From Pseudomonadales bacterium (GTDB taxonomy: Bacteria; Pseudomonadota; Gammaproteobacteria; Pseudomonadales; Azotimanducaceae), in assembly GCA_028281005.1 (NCBI GenBank), contig JANQKS010000115.1, positions 1 to 64,000 on the forward strand: a stretch of DNA of 64,000 nucleotides. The letters run 5' to 3'. The translations under genes and the position numbers were made by a program. Positions 533 through 12,394 of this stretch are shown here, in pieces. Each line of letters starts with the position of its first letter. Position 1 is the stretch's first letter. The notes under the pieces were generated by a model that was given only the letters and a program-made list of their open reading frames with translations, ran no database searches and had not been told where the DNA came from.

Positions 533-1591
533 CTATGCCAACAACGATTCTGCGAATGGTGTTTGCAGATGCTCAACAACATCGTTAAGTCGTGCTTGCG
601 AGAGATGCGCATACCGCATGGTGATTTTGATATCAGTGTGACCAAGTAACTGTTGGATCACCACAATCGGTACCCCTTTCATCGCAAGCTGTGACGCATA
701 GCTATGGCGTAAAACGTGTGGAGTGACTTTCCGTAACCCCGCTCGCTCACAGGCTAACGCCATGTGCTTACCAAGAGTTACCGGCTGAAACGCCGTGTCG
801 TGTACTTTGAAGACGAGACCTTCTGTCTCTCTGCGCTTGCTAAGCAAAGTGACTACATCATCCGACAGCGGGATCGTCCGTGTTTTGTTTCCTTTTGGCG
901 ATAGCAATGCATGTTTGACCGAACACCAGCTATGACGAACTGTCAGTGACTTGTTGTCAAAGTTAATGTCCTGCCAGCGGAGTCCTTGGAGTTCACCACG
1001 GCGTAAGCCGGTCTTTAATGCAACGTAGACGATCTCGAACCAGATACCAGAAAGATGTGGAAGGAGTTTGCTGCATTCATCTTCGATGAGAAAGTCATAG
1101 TGTGCCGGTGGCACCTTCAGCAGCACAATGTCAGGAATGGTCTCCAGGTTGTGCCAGCGTTTGGCGTCGCGCAGGCATTTACCCAGTATGGCGATTTCAT
1201 TGTTAATCGACTTATTGGCAAGGCCACGCTTCACCTGCATAGCTTTGTACTGTTCAACATGCAGTGTTGTAATCTTGTCGAGTGGCTTCTTCCCGAAGAA
1301 TGGAATGAGCTTCCTTATAAGCGTGCTCTTCACCTTTGCAATCATGGATGGTTTGTTGTGTACCAGGACATGGGTTTCAAACCAGAACCAGGCGAAGGTT
1401 TCAAAGGTCTGTGATTGTTTAATTCGTTCTGGTTCTTCTTCGATCTCTTTACCGTCTGCTAATCGTTTACGAAGGGTAACTTCGTAGGCGTGTGCGCCTT
1501 TCTTTGAGTTTTCGGGACTCTTCCTGCGATATCGTTTTCCACGATGGGAAAAGTCGATATACCAGTAATCGCCCCGTTTCTTTTGACTCAT
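533..1591 (-). CDS. tyrosine recombinase (phage/island integrase)
   Basis: A site-specific recombinase of 352 residues that would cut and rejoin DNA at the island's attachment sites. The catalytic set of the family is visible: Arg197 in TGLRRGEL, a Lys in the beta-hairpin (233 or 236), His292 and Arg295 in HVLRHSY, His318 in GHTD and the nucleophile Tyr327 in MRYAHL. Residues 60-160 look like the SAM-like core-binding domain and the first 50 like an arm-binding domain. The ATG at 1591 is the natural start. An excisionase-like gene lies 14 bases upstream on the same strand, and repeats that could be arm sites lie downstream. It appears full length and intact. Confidence 0.93.
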   Translation of the reverse strand: MSQKKRGDYWYIDFSHRGKRYRRKSPENSKKGAHAYEVTLRKRLADGKEIEEEPERIKQSQTFETFAWFWFETHVLVHNKPSMIAKVKSTLIRKLIPFFGKKPLDKITTLHVEQYKAMQVKRGLANKSINNEIAILGKCLRDAKRWHNLETIPDIVLLKVPPAHYDFLIEDECSKLLPHLSGIWFEIVYVALKTGLRRGELQGLRWQDINFDNKSLTVRHSWCSVKHALLSPKGNKTRTIPLSDDVVTLLSKRRETEGLVFKVHDTAFQPVTLGKHMALACERAGLRKVTPHVLRHSYASQLAMKGVPIVVIQQLLGHTDIKITMRYAHLSQARLNDVVEHLQTPFAESLLA

Positions 1592-1605: not shown

Positions 1606-1821
1606 TTATTCGCCAACGCTCACATGATGGTCAGGGTTACGGACATGGTCTAAATAGCGGTCAATATCTGATCGACGGATACGAATCACGCCGCGTATCT
1701 TGAATGATGCAAGATCACGATCAGCGATGAGTCGTCTAATACTACGTGCTGATATCTGCAATACGGTTGCAGCTTGTTTGACGGTGAGTAATTCACGATC
1801 AACAGGATGTGGTGTTGGCAT
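1606..1821 (-). CDS. excisionase-like / MerR-type helix-turn-helix protein
   Basis: A small DNA-binding protein of 71 residues if the ATG at 1821 is used, or 85 from a GTG at 1863. The core matches the HTH_17 excisionase family: LTVKQAATVLQISARSIRRL is the helix-turn-helix and IRIRRSDIDRYLD the wing and final helix. Immediately upstream of the integrase gene and in the same direction, it most likely directs excision or regulates the integrase. The ATG is preferred because an inverted repeat shared with the att-proximal zone would then lie in its promoter. No clear Shine-Dalgarno sequence is seen for either start. Confidence 0.75.
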   Translation of the reverse strand: MPTPHPVDRELLTVKQAATVLQISARSIRRLIADRDLASFKIRGVIRIRRSDIDRYLDHVRNPDHHVSVGE

Positions 1822-1824
1822 ATG

Positions 1825-1846
1825 TTGTGAAAGAGCGCGATAGGTT
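1825..1846. repeat. right copy of the 20-bp inverted repeat
   Basis: On the minus strand this reads AACCTATCGCGCTCTTTCAC, matching 157-178 with one base missing. It lies directly upstream of the ATG at 1821. Confidence 0.5.
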
Positions 1847-2001
1847 GGTGGCAGTGCCGCCACTGTTCCTACTCTAACATGAAAGTTATGGTGCTAATGT
1901 GGACATCGCATGGACTACGTGCGAGGTGTACATAGCTTCTCATTTGCCGGTTGTTTGTGGGAGGGAGGCAATTTTGCCCAAGGCGACATCCTTCAAAACA
2001 T

Positions 2002-2979
2002 CTATTTTTGTTGTAGGCAGTGCTGCAAAAAGACCATTACTAGATTCATTACAAGAAGAGCATCAGAAGATGTGGCGTCTTTTAAGCTTGGCTTCGCTGT
2101 GCTGTTTGTTGCACGTTCTGAGACAATCGTATTTTGAATCGAAGAAACGAATGAACTGGAGAATCGGTTATCTAACAAGAGGTTCTCGCGTTTTGCTTGC
2201 TGAAAAAGCTTTCCAACCTCACCCTTAGCATTCTTGCCCTCTTCTCCCACTAGAATCTGAAGAAAGCGCTGGACGCCTCTATGCGCTTTTGTAATTGCCT
2301 CAGGATAGTTCTCGTTTTGATAATCCTCAAACATCTCTGAAAGATCTTGGTTTACAGACTTCCATTTTGGATCTGAGAGAATTTCGATCGTAGGTGTATA
2401 TACGTCATCTATGATTCTTTTGTCCTGCCGCGGTACGAATCCACTTCTAGTGACATGTTGATTAACACCAAACTGTTCGAATATGTGATTAAAACAATTT
2501 GCCAATCGATCGAAGTCTCCGAACGCTTCTGTCAAGGCTTTATCACGATCTTCAGTTGTTGTTGCTTCTTTCGCTCGTCTGTAGCTGTAGTCGTCGATGT
2601 ACGCAGCGGCCAGTTTACTTAACATTCGATAAACAACTGGGTCGGACCCGCCATCACAAAGAATCTGGTAAAAGTCTTTGGCCGCTGCTTTCCGTCTATC
2701 GAAATCATTTCCATGGCCTTGATGGTCCCGTTGAGGCACCACTTTATGTAGGTTTTTTCCTGGACAAATCCTGAGAAACTTATGGTTCAGGTAGTAAATA
2801 GTCTGCAATATTTCTGCTGAATGTTCTGTTACCCAGCCACTGTTCACAAGTTGCTGATACGCTGTTTTTACTTCGGTATCTGATAGATCAGACCAATTTC
2901 TAAACTCAAGAACAGGAAGTATCTCATTCTCGACTGTTGGATCGTCTTGACCATATAGTCTAAATTCTGGGACTTTCAT
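2002..2979 (-). CDS. protein with abortive-infection (Abi_C-like) C-terminus
   Basis: A 325-residue protein. The last ~110 residues (HRGVQRFLQIL ..., then a segment with STAKPSLKDATSSDALL and a hydrophobic final helix) resemble the Abi_C family found at the C-terminus of phage-resistance proteins. The first ~200 residues are mostly helical, with no motif I can name. It sits between the integration genes and a TIR gene, so a role in phage defence is inferred from context plus the C-terminal resemblance. There are no membrane segments and no signal peptide. The start is an ATG at 2979, and 136 bases separate it from the TIR gene, so the two may be transcribed separately. Confidence 0.6.
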   Translation of the reverse strand: MKVPEFRLYGQDDPTVENEILPVLEFRNWSDLSDTEVKTAYQQLVNSGWVTEHSAEILQTIYYLNHKFLRICPGKNLHKVVPQRDHQGHGNDFDRRKAAAKDFYQILCDGGSDPVVYRMLSKLAAAYIDDYSYRRAKEATTTEDRDKALTEAFGDFDRLANCFNHIFEQFGVNQHVTRSGFVPRQDKRIIDDVYTPTIEILSDPKWKSVNQDLSEMFEDYQNENYPEAITKAHRGVQRFLQILVGEEGKNAKGEVGKLFQQAKRENLLLDNRFSSSFVSSIQNTIVSERATNSTAKPSLKDATSSDALLVMNLVMVFLQHCLQQK

Positions 2980-3115
2980 ATCGTTGATTCATTAGGAAGC
3001 AGTCGCTTCAATTACACATTACCACTGACATTATTGCTGTCTAGTAACGTTAAAAAAATTACGTACATCAGCTCTTACACCCATACTTCGACTGAAAAAA
3101 TATTTCAGTAAAACC
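2980..3115. other. AT-rich intergenic region with hairpin
   Basis: This lies between two leftward genes. It holds an ACTGAAA/TTTCAGT hairpin (3091-3109) just past the TIR stop codon and probably the promoter of the downstream gene. The hairpin belongs to a longer sequence repeated at 4495-4533. Confidence 0.4.
3076..3113. repeat. imperfect direct repeat, left flank of TIR/membrane-protein module
   Basis: It starts TACACC, contains TTCGACT and ends TTCAGTAAAA. The same order of blocks recurs at 4495-4533, about 32 of 39 aligned positions with one indel. The two copies bracket the divergent TIR and membrane-protein genes. Confidence 0.55.
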
Positions 3116-3892
3116 CTAATGTCGCACTGTGTCGGCGGCAAGCAATTCTGCAATTTCTAGGGCTATTTCGCCGACAGTGTGTGTCGCTGTGCTTCGAGCA
3201 ACTTTATCAACCAGAGAAGGGCTGTACTCCAACAATTCCTGCTTCGTGATGTCATGCCAGATTGGAAGAAGTATTTGTTCTCCAGAGACGGTTCGCGACA
3301 CGATTCCATCTAATTCATAGTTTGGCCAACCTTTATCAAAGAAAGACGAAGATAGTACGACCAGCCCAACTCGACTATGGGCGAGTCCATGATCAATTTT
3401 TTGTCTGAGACTGTCGCCAATACGCAGAACAAACTCGTCATACCACACCGTCAAGCCTTGTTCGGCCAACGATTCGGCAAGAGGCCGAACAACATCATTC
3501 TTGTCCTCGGAAGCATGCGAGATGAAGACATCGTAGATCTGGTCGTCTTTCGAGAGTTGTGGTGACGAATCTGACCGGACGAGACTCGGTACTGACGAAA
3601 GCGGTGCATCCTGAATCGCTGGCAACGGAGCGGGTAATATTCGCGCCGATGCACGCGTGGAGCCACGTAGCCCTTGCATGTCGATAGCAAGGTGCCAGTG
3701 CCCCGAGTTGGGTATCGCAAGGCGAAGAGGAGATTTCTTGGCTAGTCCGCCAATGAACTGATGACGTCTGCCGTTTTTGTAATTCGAGAAATTGGTACTG
3801 TTCATGAGTCTGACATTGGCACCGCTTGTCAGGGTAACTTCTACGATTTCACCACGACTCCGTTGTCCTAGATCGTTATGGATAAATTGCAC
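3116..3892 (-). CDS. DUF1883-TIR domain protein, probable NAD-cleaving defence effector
   Basis: Counted from the GTG at 3892, residues 1-86 match DUF1883: it opens QFIHNDLG and has the family's NVRLMNSTNFSNYKNGRR and SGHWH segments. After a Pro/Ser-rich linker, residues ~119-253 form a TIR domain: YDVFISHASEDK, then WYDEF, then SSSFFDKGWPNYELDG with Glu193 at the catalytic position of NAD-cleaving TIRs. Bacterial TIR effectors usually deplete NAD when triggered by phage. DUF1883 has no known function and may be the sensor or an oligomerisation part. A GTG at 3898 is possible, but 3892 fits the family start. Its promoter holds a LexA box shared with the divergent gene at 3983. Confidence 0.85.
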   Translation of the reverse strand: MQFIHNDLGQRSRGEIVEVTLTSGANVRLMNSTNFSNYKNGRRHQFIGGLAKKSPLRLAIPNSGHWHLAIDMQGLRGSTRASARILPAPLPAIQDAPLSSVPSLVRSDSSPQLSKDDQIYDVFISHASEDKNDVVRPLAESLAEQGLTVWYDEFVLRIGDSLRQKIDHGLAHSRVGLVVLSSSFFDKGWPNYELDGIVSRTVSGEQILLPIWHDITKQELLEYSPSLVDKVARSTATHTVGEIALEIAELLAADTVRH

Positions 3893-3921
3893 TTGCACAT
3901 GCTCATATGGAGGAATCGTCG

Positions 3922-3950
3922 AGTATACTGTGTTTTATTACAGTAGTGAA
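3922..3950 (-). promoter_or_regulatory. promoter of the DUF1883-TIR gene, overlapped by LexA box
   Basis: On the minus strand TTCACT (3950-3945) and TATACT (3927-3922) are separated by 17 bases. The LexA box fills the spacer and touches the -10 box, the usual layout for SOS repression. Confidence 0.55.
3926..3945. promoter_or_regulatory. LexA (SOS) box between TIR and membrane-protein genes
   Basis: TACTGTGTTTTATTACAGTA is a perfect outer palindrome matching the gammaproteobacterial consensus CTGT-N8-ACAG with flanking TA on both sides. It lies between two divergent genes, overlaps the -10 of the TIR promoter and covers the expected -35 region of the other. LexA bound here would block both, so DNA damage should induce both. 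Binding is inferred from sequence only. Confidence 0.75.
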
Positions 3951-3982
3951 TGAATATACAGTTTAAGGATAGTCTTACCCAC

Positions 3983-4477
3983 ATGGAAATCGTCGCCCTC
4001 TTGATCGCTCTTATATCAGCGGCTGCTGCGGTGACGGCGGCTGTCATCGCCTGGAAATCCCTTTCGGCTTCAAAGCGACTCGCCGACGAAAACAAGCAGG
4101 CCGAGCATGACTTACTTAAATCGCAGGTGTACGAGACTGCGACTGAACTGATGCATGCCGCTGTGGGTACAACTACTCTCGCAAATGATACGCAGGCGGC
4201 GCTGACTTCCGCATTCGCTAGTGCTGGTGGAATCAACAGCGGATTGTTAAAGCTTCATACTGAAGAACTTAAGAAGCACCACAGTGCACTGGGTGAACAC
4301 GAGCGACATGCCCGTAGCATTTGCAACAATCCAGAGGCACTTGCGGATCGGAGCGTCGCAGATTTGCGTGCAGATTTAGCAATACTCAATGGGATGAAGA
4401 TCGCTGTGGAGCGACTCCACGGGAAGTTTGAGCGAGATTTTGAGAATTACACCGCGTCTTATCGAAACAAGACATGA
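3983..4477 (+). CDS. single-helix membrane protein with coiled-coil tail, divergent partner of TIR gene
   Basis: A protein of 164 residues from the ATG at 3983. Residues 2-24 are one strong transmembrane helix (IVALLIALISAAAAVTAAVI), and the rest is charged and helical, probably cytoplasmic and partly coiled-coil. No family is recognised. An ATG at 3950 would add eleven residues but sits on the probable promoter -10 (TATACA, 3955-3960), so 3983 is preferred; AAGGA lies 13 bases before it. It shares the LexA box with the TIR gene. A membrane partner or effector of the TIR protein is a guess from this pairing alone. Confidence 0.7.
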   Translation: MEIVALLIALISAAAAVTAAVIAWKSLSASKRLADENKQAEHDLLKSQVYETATELMHAAVGTTTLANDTQAALTSAFASAGGINSGLLKLHTEELKKHHSALGEHERHARSICNNPEALADRSVADLRADLAILNGMKIAVERLHGKFERDFENYTASYRNKT

Positions 4478-4494
4478 TCTTGTACACCCGTCTG

Positions 4495-4533
4495 TACACC
4501 GAAAGTTCGACTTCCAAAAATACTTCAGTAAAA
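4495..4533. repeat. imperfect direct repeat, right flank of TIR/membrane-protein module
   Basis: TACACC, TTCGACT and TTCAGTAAAA occur in the same order and near-same spacing as at 3076-3113. It begins 18 bases after the membrane-protein stop codon and may mark the edge of an acquired module. Confidence 0.55.
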
Positions 4534-5494: not shown

Positions 5495-6712
5495 CTAAGC
5501 CACCAAAAAAATCACCAACAGCGGTACCCCAAAAAACAGCCCACCCACGTAGCCAACCAGCATTGCCGGCGCGTGCTGATAGCGGCAAATTAGCTGAGCC
5601 AGTTGCTCCGCTAGATACACTGGCAGCCGATTTAATCCCGGCACCAACAAAAACAATACCGCGCCAAACAGGTTCAGCAGGATGTGTACAAACCCAGCAG
5701 TCAAGCCGATTGGCCCAAACTTCAAATAAGACAAGATCTGTCCAGGATCGCAAGTGGTCGCAAGGGCGGCGCCTATACTGTAGTAATACACAGTAGGTAA
5801 CGTCACCGCAGCATGGGTGACCAGAGGAAGAATTAGACTCACGGTGACTGAACTGGACTGCAGCAACCAGCAAGCGGCAAACCCAATTGCCGTGGCAGTC
5901 CATTTGCCCCGAAACACACGGTCCAAAAGCGCCCGGCTGCGATCGTGCAAATAGACACTTAACGCATCCCCCATCAGACTCAACGCACCAATGAGCATTA
6001 GAAAAAACACCACACCGGTGATGATGGCCTGGAAACCGACGGCTACCGGCAGGAGAGTGATACCTGAAATCACAATATCGGTGAGCGGTTCTGTTAGCAC
6101 ATCCAATACATCCGGGAAGCCTTCGAGAAAACCACCAACCGTTTTGAACGACTCCAGGTACGCGACAATGGCCACGCTAAGCTTGTGCAGTACACCGGTA
6201 AATACCTCCAGGCTAAAGAAGATCGCGACATTGAGCACTTTAAAAACGTCGTCGACCAGAATAGAGGGTACCGCGCGCTCAAATTCGAGCCGCTTGTGAA
6301 TGTGAGCTAAGGCCACGATAGTGTTGGTGATGGTGGTACCGATGTTTGCACCCATCAGCACAAACACGCTGGCTTCTATGCTAATGACGCCCGCGGCAAC
6401 CGTGGCGACAACCAACGCTATAGTGGCCGAGCTACTCTGGATCAGCGATGTGATCACAATGCCGGAGAGCAGGCTCGTGAAAGGTGTAGCGAGCGAAGCA
6501 TCCAAAATTGCACGAGTAATATCGCCTGAAGATTCAGTTGAAAAAGCCAATCCCCAGGCGTCTTTAAAACCTGTCAGCGCGAGGATAAATCCGTACAATC
6601 CGATACCCAGCAGGAGTGCCGGGGTATATGGCAGTCGTTCTTTCTGAGCTTTCTGAGCTTTCTGAGCTTTCTGAGCTTGCGAAGTTTGAGCTTCCGAATT
6701 GGTTTCTGTCAC
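5495..6712 (-). CDS. Na+/phosphate cotransporter family protein (NptA-like), copy 1
   Basis: A membrane transporter of 405 residues in the Na/Pi cotransporter family, which moves phosphate with sodium; direction and substrate here are inferred. The hallmark inverted repeat is present: QSSSAT at 92-97 with GANIGTT at 121-127, and a second QSSSVT near 287. The second repeat has GAALATT in place of GANIGT, which may alter binding. It has about eight hydrophobic segments and no C-terminal PhoU domain. The N-terminus has an unusual Gln-Lys-Ala tail from a 9-bp tandem repeat (6640-6675). A paralogue starts divergently 141 bases away. Confidence 0.85.
   Translation of the reverse strand: MTETNSEAQTSQAQKAQKAQKAQKERLPYTPALLLGIGLYGFILALTGFKDAWGLAFSTESSGDITRAILDASLATPFTSLLSGIVITSLIQSSSATIALVVATVAAGVISIEASVFVLMGANIGTTITNTIVALAHIHKRLEFERAVPSILVDDVFKVLNVAIFFSLEVFTGVLHKLSVAIVAYLESFKTVGGFLEGFPDVLDVLTEPLTDIVISGITLLPVAVGFQAIITGVVFFLMLIGALSLMGDALSVYLHDRSRALLDRVFRGKWTATAIGFAACWLLQSSSVTVSLILPLVTHAAVTLPTVYYYSIGAALATTCDPGQILSYLKFGPIGLTAGFVHILLNLFGAVLFLLVPGLNRLPVYLAEQLAQLICRYQHAPAMLVGYVGGLFFGVPLLVIFLVA
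6640..6675. repeat. four perfect 9-bp tandem repeats in coding sequence
   Basis: CTTTCTGAG is repeated four times without error, encoding a QKA repeat in the cytoplasmic N-terminal tail of the transporter. The unit is a multiple of three, so copy-number change would lengthen or shorten the tail without a frameshift. Confidence 0.9.
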
Positions 6713-6853: not shown

Positions 6854-8065
6854 ATGCAACGCTCACTGCTTTGGTTTGGCGTCATTGCCTTGGTGTATCT
6901 ACTGCTGGTCGGCGTTGGCGTCGTCGGTGCTGGATTTAAGTGGATTTCCGGCGGCAGTGAAGGTGCACAAGCCATTTTCGCCTTTGCTGGCAACCCTGTC
7001 GCCGGTGTTATTCTCGGTACCCTCGCCACGGCTTTGGTGCAATCGTCGAGTACCGTGACGTCTGTGATTGTTGGCTTGGTCGCGGGCGGTGTGCCCGTCT
7101 CAATCGCCGTACCCATGATCATGGGTGCCAATATGGGCACCACCATCACCAATACCATCGTCAGCTTGGGAAACTTGCGCGAGGGGGCGGCGTTTTCGCG
7201 TTCCTTTCAAGCCGCCACCGTGCACGATTTTTTTAATCTCTACAGCATTCTGATCTTCCTGCCCATCGAAGTGCTATTTAGCCCCTTAGAAAGGATGGGT
7301 GGCGCTATGTCGGAATGGCTCGTTGGCGGCGAAGGCGCTTCGATGAAGGGTTTCAACGTTGTCGGCGCCATTACAAAACCGGTCTCAGAAACGCTTGTTG
7401 ATGTATTTCGCAATCTACCAGAGCCTTTAGGTCCGCTGCTTGCGATAGCCTTAGGGATCGCGCTGATCATGATCTCGGTCATCTACCTCGGCAAACTCTT
7501 GCGCTCGGCGATGACTGGGCGAGCCAAAGACATCATGGAAAAAGCCGTGGGGCGTAGCCCCGAAACCGGTGTATTTTCCGGTACGGTAGTGACGGTATTG
7601 GTGCAATCCTCCTCCACCACCACCAGCCTGATTGTGCCGCTCGCCGGCGCAGGTGTGTTGTCTATCCGGCAAGTGTTTCCATTCACCATGGGCGCTAACA
7701 TCGGGACGTGTATTACCGCACTCCTTGCCGCCACCTCCATCAGCGGCCCAAATGAAGTGTTCGCCTTACAGATTGCGTTGGTACACTTGTTTTACAATGT
7801 CATCGGCGTTCTGTTTTTCTTGTATATCCCTTACTTAAAAGACATCCCGGTACGCTCCGCAACGTGGTTGGGGACTCGAGCCGGCACCAATCGAAGTTGG
7901 GCGTTTGGGTATATTTTTGCAGTGTTCTTCATCTTGCCTGGGGCTGTATTTGGGGGAGAATTTTTGTTGGATTCACAAGATACCGAGATTATTCAAGCGG
8001 TGGACGATGATGAAACCTTGCAGTGTATTGCTGAAGTCGAAGACTGCGAAATGGCCATCGAATAA
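6854..8065 (+). CDS. Na+/phosphate cotransporter family protein, copy 2
   Basis: A 403-residue paralogue of the divergent gene at 5495-6712. Both halves of the family repeat are intact: QSSSTVTS at 63-70 with GANMGTT at 91-97, and a second QSSSTTTS with GANIGTC near 230-285. A central loop (about 145-185) separates the halves, and the tail is acidic with a Cys pair (LQCIAEVEDCE). No PhoU domain is present, unlike many longer bacterial members. A divergent pair of diverged copies suggests different affinities or opposite directions of phosphate flow, which is inference. It ends six bases before the convergent TPR gene. Confidence 0.87.
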   Translation: MQRSLLWFGVIALVYLLLVGVGVVGAGFKWISGGSEGAQAIFAFAGNPVAGVILGTLATALVQSSSTVTSVIVGLVAGGVPVSIAVPMIMGANMGTTITNTIVSLGNLREGAAFSRSFQAATVHDFFNLYSILIFLPIEVLFSPLERMGGAMSEWLVGGEGASMKGFNVVGAITKPVSETLVDVFRNLPEPLGPLLAIALGIALIMISVIYLGKLLRSAMTGRAKDIMEKAVGRSPETGVFSGTVVTVLVQSSSTTTSLIVPLAGAGVLSIRQVFPFTMGANIGTCITALLAATSISGPNEVFALQIALVHLFYNVIGVLFFLYIPYLKDIPVRSATWLGTRAGTNRSWAFGYIFAVFFILPGAVFGGEFLLDSQDTEIIQAVDDDETLQCIAEVEDCEMAIE

Positions 8066-8071
8066 ACGGAA

Positions 8072-9301
8072 CTATCTCGCTCCCGCACTCTGCGCGCGCT
8101 GTTCGTTGTTGACATATGCCAGCCACTGATCGGCGTAATCTTTGCTGGCGGGGTCGGTTACAGCGCGCTGGAAGTGTTTAGCAGCTTCTTCAAGTTCATC
8201 GAGGCGTACGTTGGCCATACCGCGTATCAGCCAAGCGCGGCCTTCCCGCTCCAATCCCCCTTTGTCTATCGCTTGTGCCGCAGCCGCATCCGCCGCGGCC
8301 CAGCGGTACGCGTCTAGGTGCAGGCCGGCGAGACGTAGGTAGAGCGTTCCGTCATCAGCAAGACGAGCGGCTTCTTCCAAGGGTGGCCACGCATTTTCGA
8401 GTTCACCCGCGGAGTACCAGGCTTGACTGAGTAATTCCAGGTTTTCAATGGTGTTTTCGATAGCGCCTTGTTCGACGCTGCGCGCCAACAACTGGGCTGC
8501 TTTGTAGGGTAATCCTTCCGCCAGAAAAAGATTGGCCAGCATCTTCAGATGCAGGGCTTGCGACAAGCGCTGATCGTCGAGCAGGGCTTCCACATACGCA
8601 AGCTGTTTCTGTTGCTCGCCTAGCTGACCGTGGAGGGCCGCTAGATTCATTAGATATTGCTCTCGCGGGTAGTAGGTGACCAGTTCTTCCATGGCATGGC
8701 GCATCTCAGGAAATGACTCCATGGCGAAATGCACCGAAGCGAGCATTGATAGCCAGCTTTCGCGAGGTGTTTCGCCTGCAACTGCGCGTTCGGCGATGGC
8801 TTGCTGCAATTGTTCGAGTGCATCTGGCCATTTTTCCTGGCCGATATAGGCGCTCGCCAGCAGCACGCGATTTTCAGCCGTGTCTTGATCTTCAATGAGC
8901 AGCAAGGCGTTGAGTTTCTCCTGCGCGTAGGCGTGTCGTTCTATCGTTAGTGCCATCCGGCCAACGGTAGCCAATAAATTAGCGGTGAGGGATTGGGGTA
9001 ACCGCGGCAGCGCCAAGGCTTCATCAAAGGCGACAATGGCTTCGTCGAGTTGGTCGCTCTGATAGAGCACCAAACCTTCCAAGCGCTTTAGCTGCGCATG
9101 TTCATAAGGCGTGACGCGATTGGTGTTTACACCCGCTAACGTCGCCAGCGCTTGGCTGTATTGCTCTGCTTCCATTTCGGTTTGGGCTTTGTTGATGACT
9201 TTAAAGACCCGCTCGCTCATGCCCACCACGGCATCTCGGGCGTGCGCGGCGCTGCCGATCAACGTGCAGCAAACGAATAAGAAGATGTACCTACGTAACA
9301 T
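8072..9301 (-). CDS. exported TPR-repeat protein, last gene of TonB2 operon
   Basis: A protein of 409 residues with a signal peptide (cleavage near AHA, residue 21) followed by about nine helical hairpins typical of tetratricopeptide repeats (for example LEGLVLYQSDQLDEAIVAFDEAL). It is expected in the periplasm. It lies 14 bases after tonB2 and is the sixth gene of the operon; Vibrio TonB2 clusters are also followed by a TPR gene. A scaffold role in the TonB2 complex is inferred from that synteny. The ATG at 9301 gives a proper signal peptide, so the start is well supported. Confidence 0.82.
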   Translation of the reverse strand: MLRRYIFLFVCCTLIGSAAHARDAVVGMSERVFKVINKAQTEMEAEQYSQALATLAGVNTNRVTPYEHAQLKRLEGLVLYQSDQLDEAIVAFDEALALPRLPQSLTANLLATVGRMALTIERHAYAQEKLNALLLIEDQDTAENRVLLASAYIGQEKWPDALEQLQQAIAERAVAGETPRESWLSMLASVHFAMESFPEMRHAMEELVTYYPREQYLMNLAALHGQLGEQQKQLAYVEALLDDQRLSQALHLKMLANLFLAEGLPYKAAQLLARSVEQGAIENTIENLELLSQAWYSAGELENAWPPLEEAARLADDGTLYLRLAGLHLDAYRWAAADAAAAQAIDKGGLEREGRAWLIRGMANVRLDELEEAAKHFQRAVTDPASKDYADQWLAYVNNEQRAQSAGAR

Positions 9302-9315
9302 GGTTACCCGCTTCC

Positions 9316-9996
9316 TCAGGACTGTCCGCGTTGCTGGTCTTGTTGAATTTCGTAGTAGAAGACGTTATTCACCCCACGCACTTCCACTGCAATACCGTCC
9401 ACGATACGCGGCTTGTACTTAAACCGTTTCGCCGCTTCAATGGATGGATGATGAAATATGGGATCGGTGCAGTAGGCCTCCAGCACCTCAATATCTTTCA
9501 CCGTACCGGCCGTTGTGACCGTATAAGTCACCGTACAATGCCCTTCCAGTTTGCGCACCAAGGCACTGCGCGGATAGATGGGGGCTACTTTCACAATGGG
9601 TAGGTAGTCTCCTTCACCGGCGCCGAACCCGGCACCCGCATCCACCACACCCAAATCAGCTTGCACCGGCGCCAGCGCCGACACGGCAAGAACTTGGCCG
9701 CTTGCGGAGGCCGCCTCTTGGGGCGCCGGTGGCGCGTTGGGTGCTTGTGTCGTTTGCGGACGTTGGGGTTTACGGTCTTTGCGTTCGACCGCTTCTGAAC
9801 GCTGCACCCGCACAAAATCCAGCATTTGGGTGCGATGGGTGTCCGCGAGTTGCATTTCACTGCGATGCACCAGCGAATACATAAACCAAGCCAAAGCCAC
9901 GGCCGCGCCAATACCGATGGCGCTGCCGAGTAACCCCATCAGCGCTTGCTGCCATAGGCTGCGTTTGGTGTATAGCTGCAGAGTCAACGTTTGCAT
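9316..9996 (-). CDS. tonB2: TonB-family energy transducer (TonB2)
   Basis: A protein of 226 residues that carries proton-motive energy from the inner membrane to outer-membrane receptors. One N-terminal membrane helix lies at about 16-42, followed by a Pro/Gln-rich periplasmic spacer (90-130), shorter than in classical TonB, and a C-terminal TonB domain: YPRSALVRKLEGHCTVTYTV and FKYKPRIVDG. Two cysteines in this domain (GHCTV and AYCTD) may form a disulfide. It lies between exbD2 and the TPR gene on one transcript. The short spacer and the neighbours place it with the TonB2 group. Confidence 0.9.
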   Translation of the reverse strand: MQTLTLQLYTKRSLWQQALMGLLGSAIGIGAAVALAWFMYSLVHRSEMQLADTHRTQMLDFVRVQRSEAVERKDRKPQRPQTTQAPNAPPAPQEAASASGQVLAVSALAPVQADLGVVDAGAGFGAGEGDYLPIVKVAPIYPRSALVRKLEGHCTVTYTVTTAGTVKDIEVLEAYCTDPIFHHPSIEAAKRFKYKPRIVDGIAVEVRGVNNVFYYEIQQDQQRGQS

Positions 9997-10009
9997 GGCG
10001 GTCCGCTGG

Positions 10010-10420
10010 TTAGTCCGTTGTGGCCGCTAGCGCGATGTCGTACACCCCTGCTCGACGTGATGCATCCATCACTTGCACTAGGGTGCGATTGCGGGACTCT
10101 TCGTCAGCTTGAATGACGACGGTACCTTTGGGATTTTCCGCATGCAGACGTTCGATGATTGAACGCACCGAGCGAATATCTACTTGGCGACGGTTGATCC
10201 AGATGTTGTCCGCCGCATCGATGGCTATGAGGATACTGGCTTTTTCCTGCACCACCGCCGTAGCGGCTTCCGGTTTGTCTACCTCTATGCCGGATTCTTT
10301 GATGAAAGTGGCGGTGACGATGAAAAAGATCAGCATGATGAACACCACGTCCAACATCGGGGTAATGTCGACCGAGCTTTCCTCGCCGTTGTCTTGCATG
10401 GTTTTGATGAAATCACGCAT
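10010..10420 (-). CDS. exbD2: ExbD-like biopolymer transport protein (ExbD2)
   Basis: A protein of 136 residues counted from the ATG at 10420. A single membrane helix follows the conserved DITPMLDVVFIMLIFF, whose Asp is the proton-binding residue of ExbD/TolR/MotB proteins. The periplasmic part keeps the VVIQADEES and VMDASRRAG segments of the family. An upstream in-frame start would run deep into exbB2, so 10420 is chosen; it overlaps the exbB2 stop by eight bases, indicating coupled translation. It works with the ExbB-type proteins to energise TonB2. Confidence 0.92.
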   Translation of the reverse strand: MRDFIKTMQDNGEESSVDITPMLDVVFIMLIFFIVTATFIKESGIEVDKPEAATAVVQEKASILIAIDAADNIWINRRQVDIRSVRSIIERLHAENPKGTVVIQADEESRNRTLVQVMDASRRAGVYDIALAATTD

Positions 10421-10952
10421 GGTGGATTTGTCCCTCGAAGTAAGCGGGCAGGCGTTCTTGTTCGGCTTTGGCGCGGCGTTCCGCAATGGTATGGGCTAGA
10501 AGTGCAACGATCGCCACCACCATGCCGGCCAACGTGGATATGGTGGCTTTAGACACCCCGGCAGCCATCGAGCGTGGATTGTTCGATCCGGTGGCGGCCA
10601 GGGCATCAAACACTTCCAACATTCCCAACACCGTTCCCAGCAGTCCCAGGAGTGGACAGACTTTGATGAGCGTGCCGATCAAGTCGTAGTTTTTGCTTAA
10701 GCCCGTGCCAAGCGTATTGACGTAATCGTTGCGCTGTTGCGCGGCAAACCATGAATTTGTCTCGGGGCGCACCCTCCAAGCTGATTTGGCTTCGGCCAGC
10801 ACTTTGGGGTACACCCGGGTAAGGAAGAAGATGCGTTCAAACAATAAGATCCAAATAATCGCCGCGATCACCAATATCAGCGTCACGATTGGGCCGCCGG
10901 TTTCTAATAGATCAGCCAGCCACGGCAACCACAAATCCAGAAATTGAGTCAT
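10413..10952 (-). CDS. exbB2: ExbB/TolQ/MotA-family proton channel (ExbB2)
   Basis: A protein of 179 residues with three membrane helices (about 18-40, 95-117 and 140-162). The family signature CPLLGLLGTVLGMLEVF is present, as is the second conserved segment SKATISTLAGMVVAIVALL. It forms the inner-membrane channel with ExbD2. It overlaps ttpC by four bases (ATGA) upstream and exbD2 by eight bases downstream. It is shorter than Escherichia ExbB because it lacks the long N-terminal region, which fits ExbB2 of TonB2 systems. Confidence 0.92.
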   Translation of the reverse strand: MTQFLDLWLPWLADLLETGGPIVTLILVIAAIIWILLFERIFFLTRVYPKVLAEAKSAWRVRPETNSWFAAQQRNDYVNTLGTGLSKNYDLIGTLIKVCPLLGLLGTVLGMLEVFDALAATGSNNPRSMAAGVSKATISTLAGMVVAIVALLAHTIAERRAKAEQERLPAYFEGQIHHA

Positions 10953-12394
10953 GCCGCCATTTCCGTGGCTGTGTCAGCACGCGCAGTCTGCGCCGCATCT
11001 GCCTCAACTTTGGCGGCTACCACCGCCACGGCTTTGTGTTGCAAAATTTCGGTGAGTGACTTGGCCCGCATCTGCACAATGTTGTGTAGCAACAACATTG
11101 GGATGGCGACACATAAACCCAACACGGTCGTTACTAAGGCTTGAGAAATACCGCCGGCCATGAGCCGAGGATCCCCGGCGCCAAACAGAGTGATGGCCTG
11201 GAAAGTGATGATCATACCGCTGACGGTACCGAGTAATCCCATCAGAGGCGCCACCGCCGCAATGATCTTTAAAAAGGGAATATAGGCGTTGATACGCGGC
11301 GTTTCCTGCATCACGGCCTCCCCCATGCGCAGTTCCAGCGCATCCACATCGGGAATGTTGTCATCTTTCGCCGCCAACAGAATGCGGCCTAGAGGATTGT
11401 TTGCCTGAGGTTGATCAATTGCGTTTAACTGCTGATTGATAACCCTACCCTGCCACAGAAGAACGGCGAACCGCACCAATGCAAACAGCACGCCGATACT
11501 GCCCAGCGCAATGATGGCGTAGCCAATGGCGCCCCCCTGGGCAATACGCTCCATTAAATTAGGGGCTTGGGTGAGGATGTCGAGCAGTTGCCCGCGCACC
11601 GGGTCGATGGCTACCGGTACGGTACCCGCCGAGCCTGCCGCCATCGCTTCGATCCCACCCATGTAGCGTGATGCGGGTTGTCGCGAAAACTCCACCAAAC
11701 GCCCGGTTTCAGGAATAAACTTCAAATACTTGCCATCGGCAACGGCGTTAAACAAGCCGATGCGGGTAACGGGTAGGCTGTTTTCGACGCCTGCGCCGCT
11801 CACCACCGGATGTTGGCCGGTGATCACCTGACCCGAAGCGGTCATCTCCTGCAACAACTCGTACCACACTGTCTCAATTTCGGAGATTGCCGGTAGGCGG
11901 TTGGCTTGGCCCATCCTTCCGGCGAAATCGATCAAAAAGTCTGTGCGGTCTGGTTGCTCCAGCTGCGTAAGAGAGACCTGAAACTGTCCCTGGGCGTCAC
12001 CCGCGGTTTGCTGCAGGACACCAAATAACTCCTTAAGCGACCCCATGCGGTCGCGGAGACGCTTTTCCAGATCACCAATTAACAGCTCGTTGTCTTCGAA
12101 CGCAGATTCTTTGTTTGCACTTTGCTGCTCCAATTGGCTGCGTCGATTCTGCATATCCTGCAGTTGCTGCTCACGCTCGGCCTGCACGTCGCTAAATTGC
12201 CGCAATCGTGCATCATTGTTGGCTTGGTCCCCCGCACGGCCTTCTCTAACCGCTTCCAGCAATTGCTGAAGGTCCATCGGCACTGAAGGCGCGGAGGACG
12301 CGGAGTTTTGTGCAGCCACTGCAGATTGCGGATAAATCGATAACGACACAACGCAGACGCAGAACACAGCGGTAAAGGTTGGGATTCTGTTCAT
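10949..12394 (-). CDS. ttpC: TtpC-like extended ExbB-family protein
   Basis: A protein of 481 residues. A signal peptide (1-27) leads to a periplasmic region of ~250 residues with a long coiled coil (about 60-125, rich in Gln, Glu and Arg). The C-terminal third is a MotA/TolQ/ExbB channel domain with three membrane helices and the signature VAPLMGLLGTVSGMIITF. This matches TtpC of Vibrio TonB2 systems, where it is required together with ExbB2, ExbD2 and TonB2. Its ATG overlaps the stop of the DUF3450 gene (ATGA). The function is assigned from architecture and gene order. Confidence 0.88.
   Translation of the reverse strand: MNRIPTFTAVFCVCVVSLSIYPQSAVAAQNSASSAPSVPMDLQQLLEAVREGRAGDQANNDARLRQFSDVQAEREQQLQDMQNRRSQLEQQSANKESAFEDNELLIGDLEKRLRDRMGSLKELFGVLQQTAGDAQGQFQVSLTQLEQPDRTDFLIDFAGRMGQANRLPAISEIETVWYELLQEMTASGQVITGQHPVVSGAGVENSLPVTRIGLFNAVADGKYLKFIPETGRLVEFSRQPASRYMGGIEAMAAGSAGTVPVAIDPVRGQLLDILTQAPNLMERIAQGGAIGYAIIALGSIGVLFALVRFAVLLWQGRVINQQLNAIDQPQANNPLGRILLAAKDDNIPDVDALELRMGEAVMQETPRINAYIPFLKIIAAVAPLMGLLGTVSGMIITFQAITLFGAGDPRLMAGGISQALVTTVLGLCVAIPMLLLHNIVQMRAKSLTEILQHKAVAVVAAKVEADAAQTARADTATEMAA

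Follow-up and report, generated by a model that had tools for sequence, protein, structure and literature searches.

A putative double LexA operator between a DUF1883-TIR gene and a membrane-protein gene in a gammaproteobacterial island

The first 64,000 nucleotides of contig JANQKS010000115.1 (assembly GCA_028281005.1), from a Pseudomonadales bacterium of the Azotimanducaceae, were analysed as one stretch, hereafter the window; this contig (G000:C47) is one of 135 that make up the 5.1-Mb assembly, and the host lexA gene lies on the same contig, at position 155951. Within the window, a minus-strand gene for a protein that joins a DUF1883 domain to a TIR domain stands back to back with a plus-strand gene for a membrane protein, and two adjacent candidate LexA boxes lie between them (Table 1).

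Table 1. Features of the locus in window coordinates, with the related box from a Chloroflexi assembly in the last row
Feature	Position	Strand	Remarks
LexA box 1	3926..3945	.	TACTGTGTTTTATTACAGTA; core 3928-3943; matrix score 20.2, rank 1 in window
LexA box 2	3944..3963	.	TAGTGAATGAATATACAGTT; core 3946-3961; score 16.8, rank 3 in window
Promoter-like match, TIR gene	3922..3950	-	TTCACT-17-TATACT; box 1 core inside spacer
DUF1883-TIR gene	3116..3898	-	260 aa from GTG 3898; DUF1883 5.7e-32, TIR_2 9.5e-19
164-aa membrane protein	3983..4477	+	Single hydrophobic helix at the N terminus, followed by long helices
Direct repeat A	3063..3113	+	Immediately beyond TIR stop
Direct repeat B	4482..4533	+	Immediately beyond membrane-protein stop
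325-aa protein, neighbour	2002..2979	-	Weak matches: STM4504/CBY_0614 family, Exonuc_X-T_C
Excisionase-type helix-turn-helix protein	1606..1863	-	Profile match
Tyrosine integrase	533..1591	-	Profile match
L005 LexA box	L005:4909-4928 (and L141)		GAAC-N4-GTTC type, matches own lexA box

Two boxes of the host type between divergent genes

The original prediction for this locus named the 20-mer at 3926-3945 as a LexA box, and it is present as claimed; the locus is stronger than that prediction had it, with a second box at 3944-3963 that was not part of it. The two boxes are 18 bp apart, centre to centre. Box 1 had been described as a perfect palindrome, which is true of its outer arms, TACTGT and ACAGTA, but not of its 8-base centre, GTTTTATT. 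The claim that it fills the spacer of the TIR promoter agrees with our reading: the box 1 core falls within the 17-base spacer (3928-3944) of a promoter-like match that runs from 3950 to 3922 and is the only one listed on the minus strand between 1700 and 5300. The TIR gene could start as early as 3898, 24 bases beyond the end of the -10 hexamer of this match; GTG 3892 is the more likely start, relatives starting at the equivalent position. The open reading frame (ORF) of the membrane protein opens at ATG 3950, within box 2, and its more likely start is ATG 3983.

The LexA motif of the host can be established without recourse to this locus. Residues 1-200 of the 202 of the host LexA match solved LexA structures, the best being PDB 7b5g (9.8e-79), which we take to be E. 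coli LexA, and the host protein is, to judge by its sequence, of the E. coli type. Two exact CTGT-N8-ACAG boxes stand upstream of its own lexA gene, and TACTGAATGAATATACAGTA stands upstream of its recA. Across the genus, lexA was found in 30 of the 40 genomes searched (29 loci were re-read by protein motif, the thirtieth being L046); since all 30 loci carry at least one box at no more than one mismatch, L046 showing two, the motif is established for the genus independently of the TIR locus. The operator matches the host's own lexA and recA boxes, box 2 being identical to the recA box at 18 of 20 positions, and the 18-bp spacing of a box pair is common to the TIR locus and 11 of the 30 lexA loci (L033, L046, L047, L049, L052, and L054-L059). 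In motif, score, and position over a promoter-like match, it is like the LexA operators of gammaproteobacterial SOS genes (lexA, recA, dinB, and imuA); those control repair or mutagenesis genes, whereas the gene here encodes a TIR enzyme.

The matrix used to score sites has 20 positions and was trained on 47 distinct lexA boxes from the genus together with the host's own recA box. Within the 64-kb window the ranking is box 1 (20.2), a site at 5776 (18.4), and box 2 (16.8), followed by a site at 12.1; with recA removed from training, the three scores barely shift (20.1, 18.3, and 16.5). In 40 Mb of first-order Markov sequence of window composition, 2 sites scored as high as box 1 and 45 as high as box 2, and the counts were 4 and 87 in a second 40 Mb of island composition; neither run held any pair like box 1 and box 2 at a distance of 14-24 bp. 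A smaller, less precise null (2.56 Mb) gave one site as good as each box. The exact pattern TACTGT-N8-ACAGTA, with its 12 fixed bases, occurs at two places in the 5.1-Mb genome, namely box 1 and 5776-5795. The latter (score 18.4) falls inside an ORF resembling an Na/Pi cotransporter and is probably a chance match.

Across the genome, the bare CTGT-N8-ACAG motif has 44 sites as compared to 34 for its reversed control, so that most of the 44 are likely due to chance. When all 44 were scored with the matrix, nine reached at least 17.9, and the tenth scored 14.7. Those nine are found at lexA (twice), at dinB (L010), at an imuA-imuB-like pair (L011), at a radical-SAM gene (L017), before a 66-aa ORF (L084), at the TIR locus, at L019, which has no clear gene, and at the coding-sequence site 5776. 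The gene calls at L010, L011, and L017 are backed by Pfam; gene context for the 44 sites was otherwise read off the longest ORF, a simple rule that places some of them inside short, probably spurious ORFs. Box 1 and box 2 score like the boxes of lexA, dinB, and the imuA-like gene.

The small excess of the bare motif over its control, and the good match inside the gene at 5776, could be taken to mean that the boxes are a chance likeness or the site of another regulator. Against this stand two adjacent boxes, one of them in a promoter spacer, that match the host's own recA and lexA boxes and that have no paired equivalent in either 40-Mb null, and we regard such an origin as very improbable. Because the boxes are of the host type, rank first and third in the window, and find no simulated pair to equal them, the DUF1883-TIR gene is very likely under LexA control, LexA being predicted to repress at least this gene. 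We hold it highly probable that LexA would bind between the two genes, and probable that DNA damage would induce expression through LexA.

The DUF1883-TIR protein and its divergent neighbour

The TIR part of the protein matches PDB 7uwg (3.4e-51, 133 residues aligned) and 8g83, named AbTIR (4.6e-51), while the DUF1883 part matches Atu1913 (PDB 2b1y). In common with AbTIR and its relatives, which are TIR NAD+ hydrolases, it has the TIR domain and the Trp and Glu of the motif GW-x2-YELDG; we take these two residues to be catalytic in AbTIR, and they are invariant in all eight aligned proteins, this one included. The close AbTIR match and the retained Trp/Glu pair give good grounds for expecting NAD+ chemistry. 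Unlike AbTIR, the TIR domain is here fused to an N-terminal DUF1883 domain and placed under what appears to be a LexA-type operator. The best PADLOC model, PDC-S66 (6.5e-66), covers residues 112-253, so that its likeness is limited to the TIR part and the DUF1883 domain lies outside the match. ThsB models of the Thoeris system also match the TIR part (best 1.7e-40), but a ThsA-type match is absent from the six neighbouring proteins scanned. Likeness over nearly the full length is found with PHROG 9211 (1.8e-102), and over the full length with DUF1883-TIR proteins of plasmids. A single-sequence structure model was poor (pLDDT 45.9) and was left unused.

For the membrane protein, hydropathy gives one strong N-terminal hydrophobic stretch and AlphaFold2, run on the single sequence, predicts long helices (pLDDT 81.5); a fold search returned no match at E<=0.001. 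The SLATT_1 match (E 0.79, 10.2 bits) falls below the Pfam cut-off of 26.3 and is at most a hint of a SLATT/2TM effector. Within 38 genomes (its own and 37 relatives) the protein matched itself only, 369 genomes of the class added two weak partial matches (E 0.0014 and 0.0036), and viral contigs, plasmids, and phages yielded none. Direct comparison was confined to the proteins of L004 and L025. The upstream protein of L004 gave a slight match (E 0.003 in a single comparison, over 34 columns) that we rejected as homology, and the transmembrane protein beside the TIR gene of L025 showed no likeness. At L025, from the same genus, the gene for a 386-aa TIR_2 protein precedes, on one strand, that for this 139-aa protein with one transmembrane segment, a further case of a TIR gene with a membrane-protein gene as neighbour (L025:870-2547). 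For the pair in the window, a functional link between the TIR enzyme and the membrane protein seems to us an even prospect.

Homologous loci and a second operator type

A DUF1883-TIR match occurs in 384 plasmid records, in 113 of them over 80% or more of the protein's length. We read 13 other full-length loci of this kind, namely L004, the Chloroflexi locus L005, ten plasmid loci (including the close relatives L093, L094, L095, and L139), and L142 from viral contigs. The L095 protein is 75% identical to the TIR protein over 251 aa; its gene faces a gene for a ThsB-type TIR protein, with a gene for a two-transmembrane protein beyond, a layout shared by L093 and L139, and no LexA box was found in the stretches scanned. 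This group of genes lies on plasmid pKPC-b33e near a carbapenemase gene (L095:2470-4768). The L142 protein is 72% identical, and its gene is preceded by another whose 171-aa product has a membrane stretch (L142:2188-3768).

Several results weigh against the SOS reading of the divergent pair. The original prediction looked to homologous loci for conservation of the box and named loci without it as grounds for refutation; conservation was not borne out, since 12 of the 13 loci lack a host-type box in the stretches scanned, and the remaining one, L005, has a box of its own host's type. We expect the hosts of L093, L094, L095, L139, and L136 to use CTGT-N8-ACAG, and these five loci have no exact match in 400 bp; their matrix scores are at most 4.3 apart from one site in L093 and L139, a one-mismatch match (12.2) about 400 bases upstream that falls within the adjacent TIR gene. 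No clear homologue of the membrane protein with which to test the pairing turned up in genomes, viral contigs, plasmids, or phages, and the divergent pair, whose recurrence the original prediction had proposed as a check, was not found elsewhere in these collections. At the locus itself, promoter-like matches taken together do not exceed the number in shuffled sequence (6, against a mean of 6.8), and the consensus-like match around box 1 is no proof of a promoter. No plus-strand promoter-like match is listed between 2960 and 4506, which leaves the placement of box 1 over the -35 region of the membrane-protein gene unconfirmed. Finally, the site at 5776, a good match only 1.8 kb from box 1, sits within a gene, so that a high score alone is no proof of an operator. 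SOS control had been claimed for both genes; it keeps its standing for the TIR gene, through the E. coli-type LexA, the genus motif, and the scores, and is a weaker proposition for the membrane-protein gene because no promoter was recognised there.

Loci from other hosts gave similar results. We take GTTC-N7-GTTC to be the LexA motif of the alphaproteobacterial hosts and GAAC-N4-GTTC that of the actinobacterial hosts; two alphaproteobacterial loci have no exact match to the former in 400 bp, and three actinobacterial loci have none to the latter in 400 bp or in 1000 bp. L004 and L142 were searched for all three motifs, and none of them occurs exactly in 400 bp. One-mismatch matches to the clade motifs upstream of L137 (-64), L138 (-257), and L169 (-301) were not counted as boxes. 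In wider comparisons, 27 DUF1883-family loci besides the TIR locus include three (L130, L134, and L135) that score 14.5-15.8 somewhere in 3.2 kb; the best upstream score among 24 viral-contig loci of TIR-part relatives is 12.1 (L160); and 11 genome loci of such relatives, scanned whole (L024-L030 and L089-L092), reach 14.8 (L025) and then 12.2 (L090). The box-like site at L025:2223 was set aside as an operator because it is within the TIR coding frame. Since 12 of the 13 relatives lack a host-type box, the LexA box is, on these sequences, not a family trait of DUF1883-TIR.

The neighbouring genes also vary from locus to locus. One for a protein with a membrane stretch lies beside or near the DUF1883-TIR gene in the window and at L142, L093, L095, L139, and L138. 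A hydrophobic stretch is also present in the neighbour tested at L004 and L136, and absent from the one neighbour tested at L137, L167, and L168; this hydropathy comparison left out L005, L094, and L169.

The Chloroflexi locus presents a different operator. Its DUF1883-TIR protein is 51-52% identical to the TIR protein of the window, and its gene is preceded by AACCGAACGTTCGTTCAGTA, a box of the GAAC-N4-GTTC type whose GAAC begins 88 bases ahead of the start. The lexA gene of the same genome (G799) has its own box, AATCGAACGTCCGTTCTGTA, which starts 44 bases before the ATG and abuts TTGACA; the two boxes are identical at 17 of 20 positions. No site as similar to the G799 lexA box arose in 10 Mb of Markov sequence of L005 composition, and the bare motif is expected 0.006 times per 300 bp; the L005 box was, however, noticed after scanning the loci with several motifs, and is one success among 13 loci. 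Proteins of the DUF1883-TIR type thus appear to be under SOS control in two phyla through two different operators. Since no box was found in most relatives, yet a distant one whose LexA motif differs does have one, LexA control looks to have been acquired more than once rather than inherited.

Island setting and proposed mechanism

The divergent pair is bracketed by two direct repeats, imperfect and 51-52 bp long, that begin shortly after the stop codons of the two genes and whose alignment score of 25 exceeds that of all 1976 random window pairs (best 17). Because the repeats enclose both genes, the pair and its operator have the look of a single unit that can be transferred. Elsewhere in the genome, the 18-base repeat core has 7 matches at 2-3 mismatches as compared to 2 for a control; at L098, the only one of the seven inspected, the likeness does not extend beyond the core. 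G+C content in 500-base windows is 0.41-0.50 for starts up to 3001 and 0.50-0.60 for starts 7001-11501, and no tRNA gene was found in the 64-kb window.

This setting also bears on what the operator is for. The TIR, 325-aa, excisionase-type, and integrase genes follow one another in that order on the minus strand, and an SOS transcript running through all four could make the operator mainly a device of the mobile element, with damage leading to excision and the TIR gene as cargo; a statement in PMC10763509 has it that DNA-damaging antibiotics can induce island excision via the SOS response. Gaps of 136 and 138 bp between the first three genes, the first of them holding repeat A, speak against this explanation, as does the Chloroflexi locus, where no integrase was recognised by eye among the ORFs listed, no profile search having been made. 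We consider this explanation unlikely. Alternatively, the membrane protein could be an antitoxin or anchor of the TIR enzyme, the two forming an SOS-controlled toxin-restraint pair that stabilises the island and has no anti-phage role. The divergent arrangement, the common operator region, and the bracketing repeats would suit such a pair, but no plasmid record matches the membrane protein, though 113 match DUF1883-TIR at 80% coverage or more; we think this rather unlikely too.

We favour, as likely on balance, a small mobile module whose own SOS operator drives a TIR enzyme. In the undamaged cell, a LexA dimer on box 1 would block the TIR promoter and a second on box 2 would lie toward the membrane-protein gene, and both genes would stay at low expression. 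Damage to DNA, by an infecting phage among other causes, would give rise to RecA filaments, LexA self-cleavage, and production of the DUF1883-TIR enzyme, whose AbTIR-like domain would then cleave NAD+ or produce cyclic ADP-ribose as a signal. Timing of TIR activity is probably set by the DUF1883 domain, and the membrane protein is probably a membrane effector or a restraint of the enzyme; as a result, cells that are infected or badly damaged would stop growing or die. The action of the enzyme after induction is what we infer from its relatives, and the membrane protein may be effector, restraint, or unrelated. A role of the module in defence could hold or fail with equal probability. More tentatively, and with doubts that exceed our confidence, DUF1883-TIR enzymes may have been recruited repeatedly to the SOS response in distant bacteria, through each host's type of LexA operator, so that DNA damage would license TIR attack by NAD+ or signalling, here with a membrane partner. 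Such enzymes would form a branch of TIR immunity gated by SOS.

The usual triggers of TIR defence enzymes are considered to be parts of phages or second messengers. If the proposal is true, the LexA link would let DNA damage license cell death driven by TIR, and TIR enzymes would join the genes induced by DNA-damaging antibiotics; moreover, the cross-phylum case makes it testable whether LexA control of TIR is selected rather than accidental. No LexA- or SOS-controlled TIR gene was found in the open-licence literature searched, most subscription papers and bioRxiv being outside that scope, and this silence is a weak sign of novelty. DUF1883 is one of the domains that a figure legend in PMC9153377 lists for the predominant TIR architectures shown there. 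AbpAB, described in a passage of PMC10732053 as a defence system set off by DNA damage, shares that tie with the TIR module, for which the link would be LexA itself.

A further candidate came from the genome-wide scan. The best of the 44 exact sites (25.6) stands immediately 5' of the 66-aa ORF at L084:1537-1756, which has no Pfam family above cut-off and is possibly an unrecognised SOS gene.
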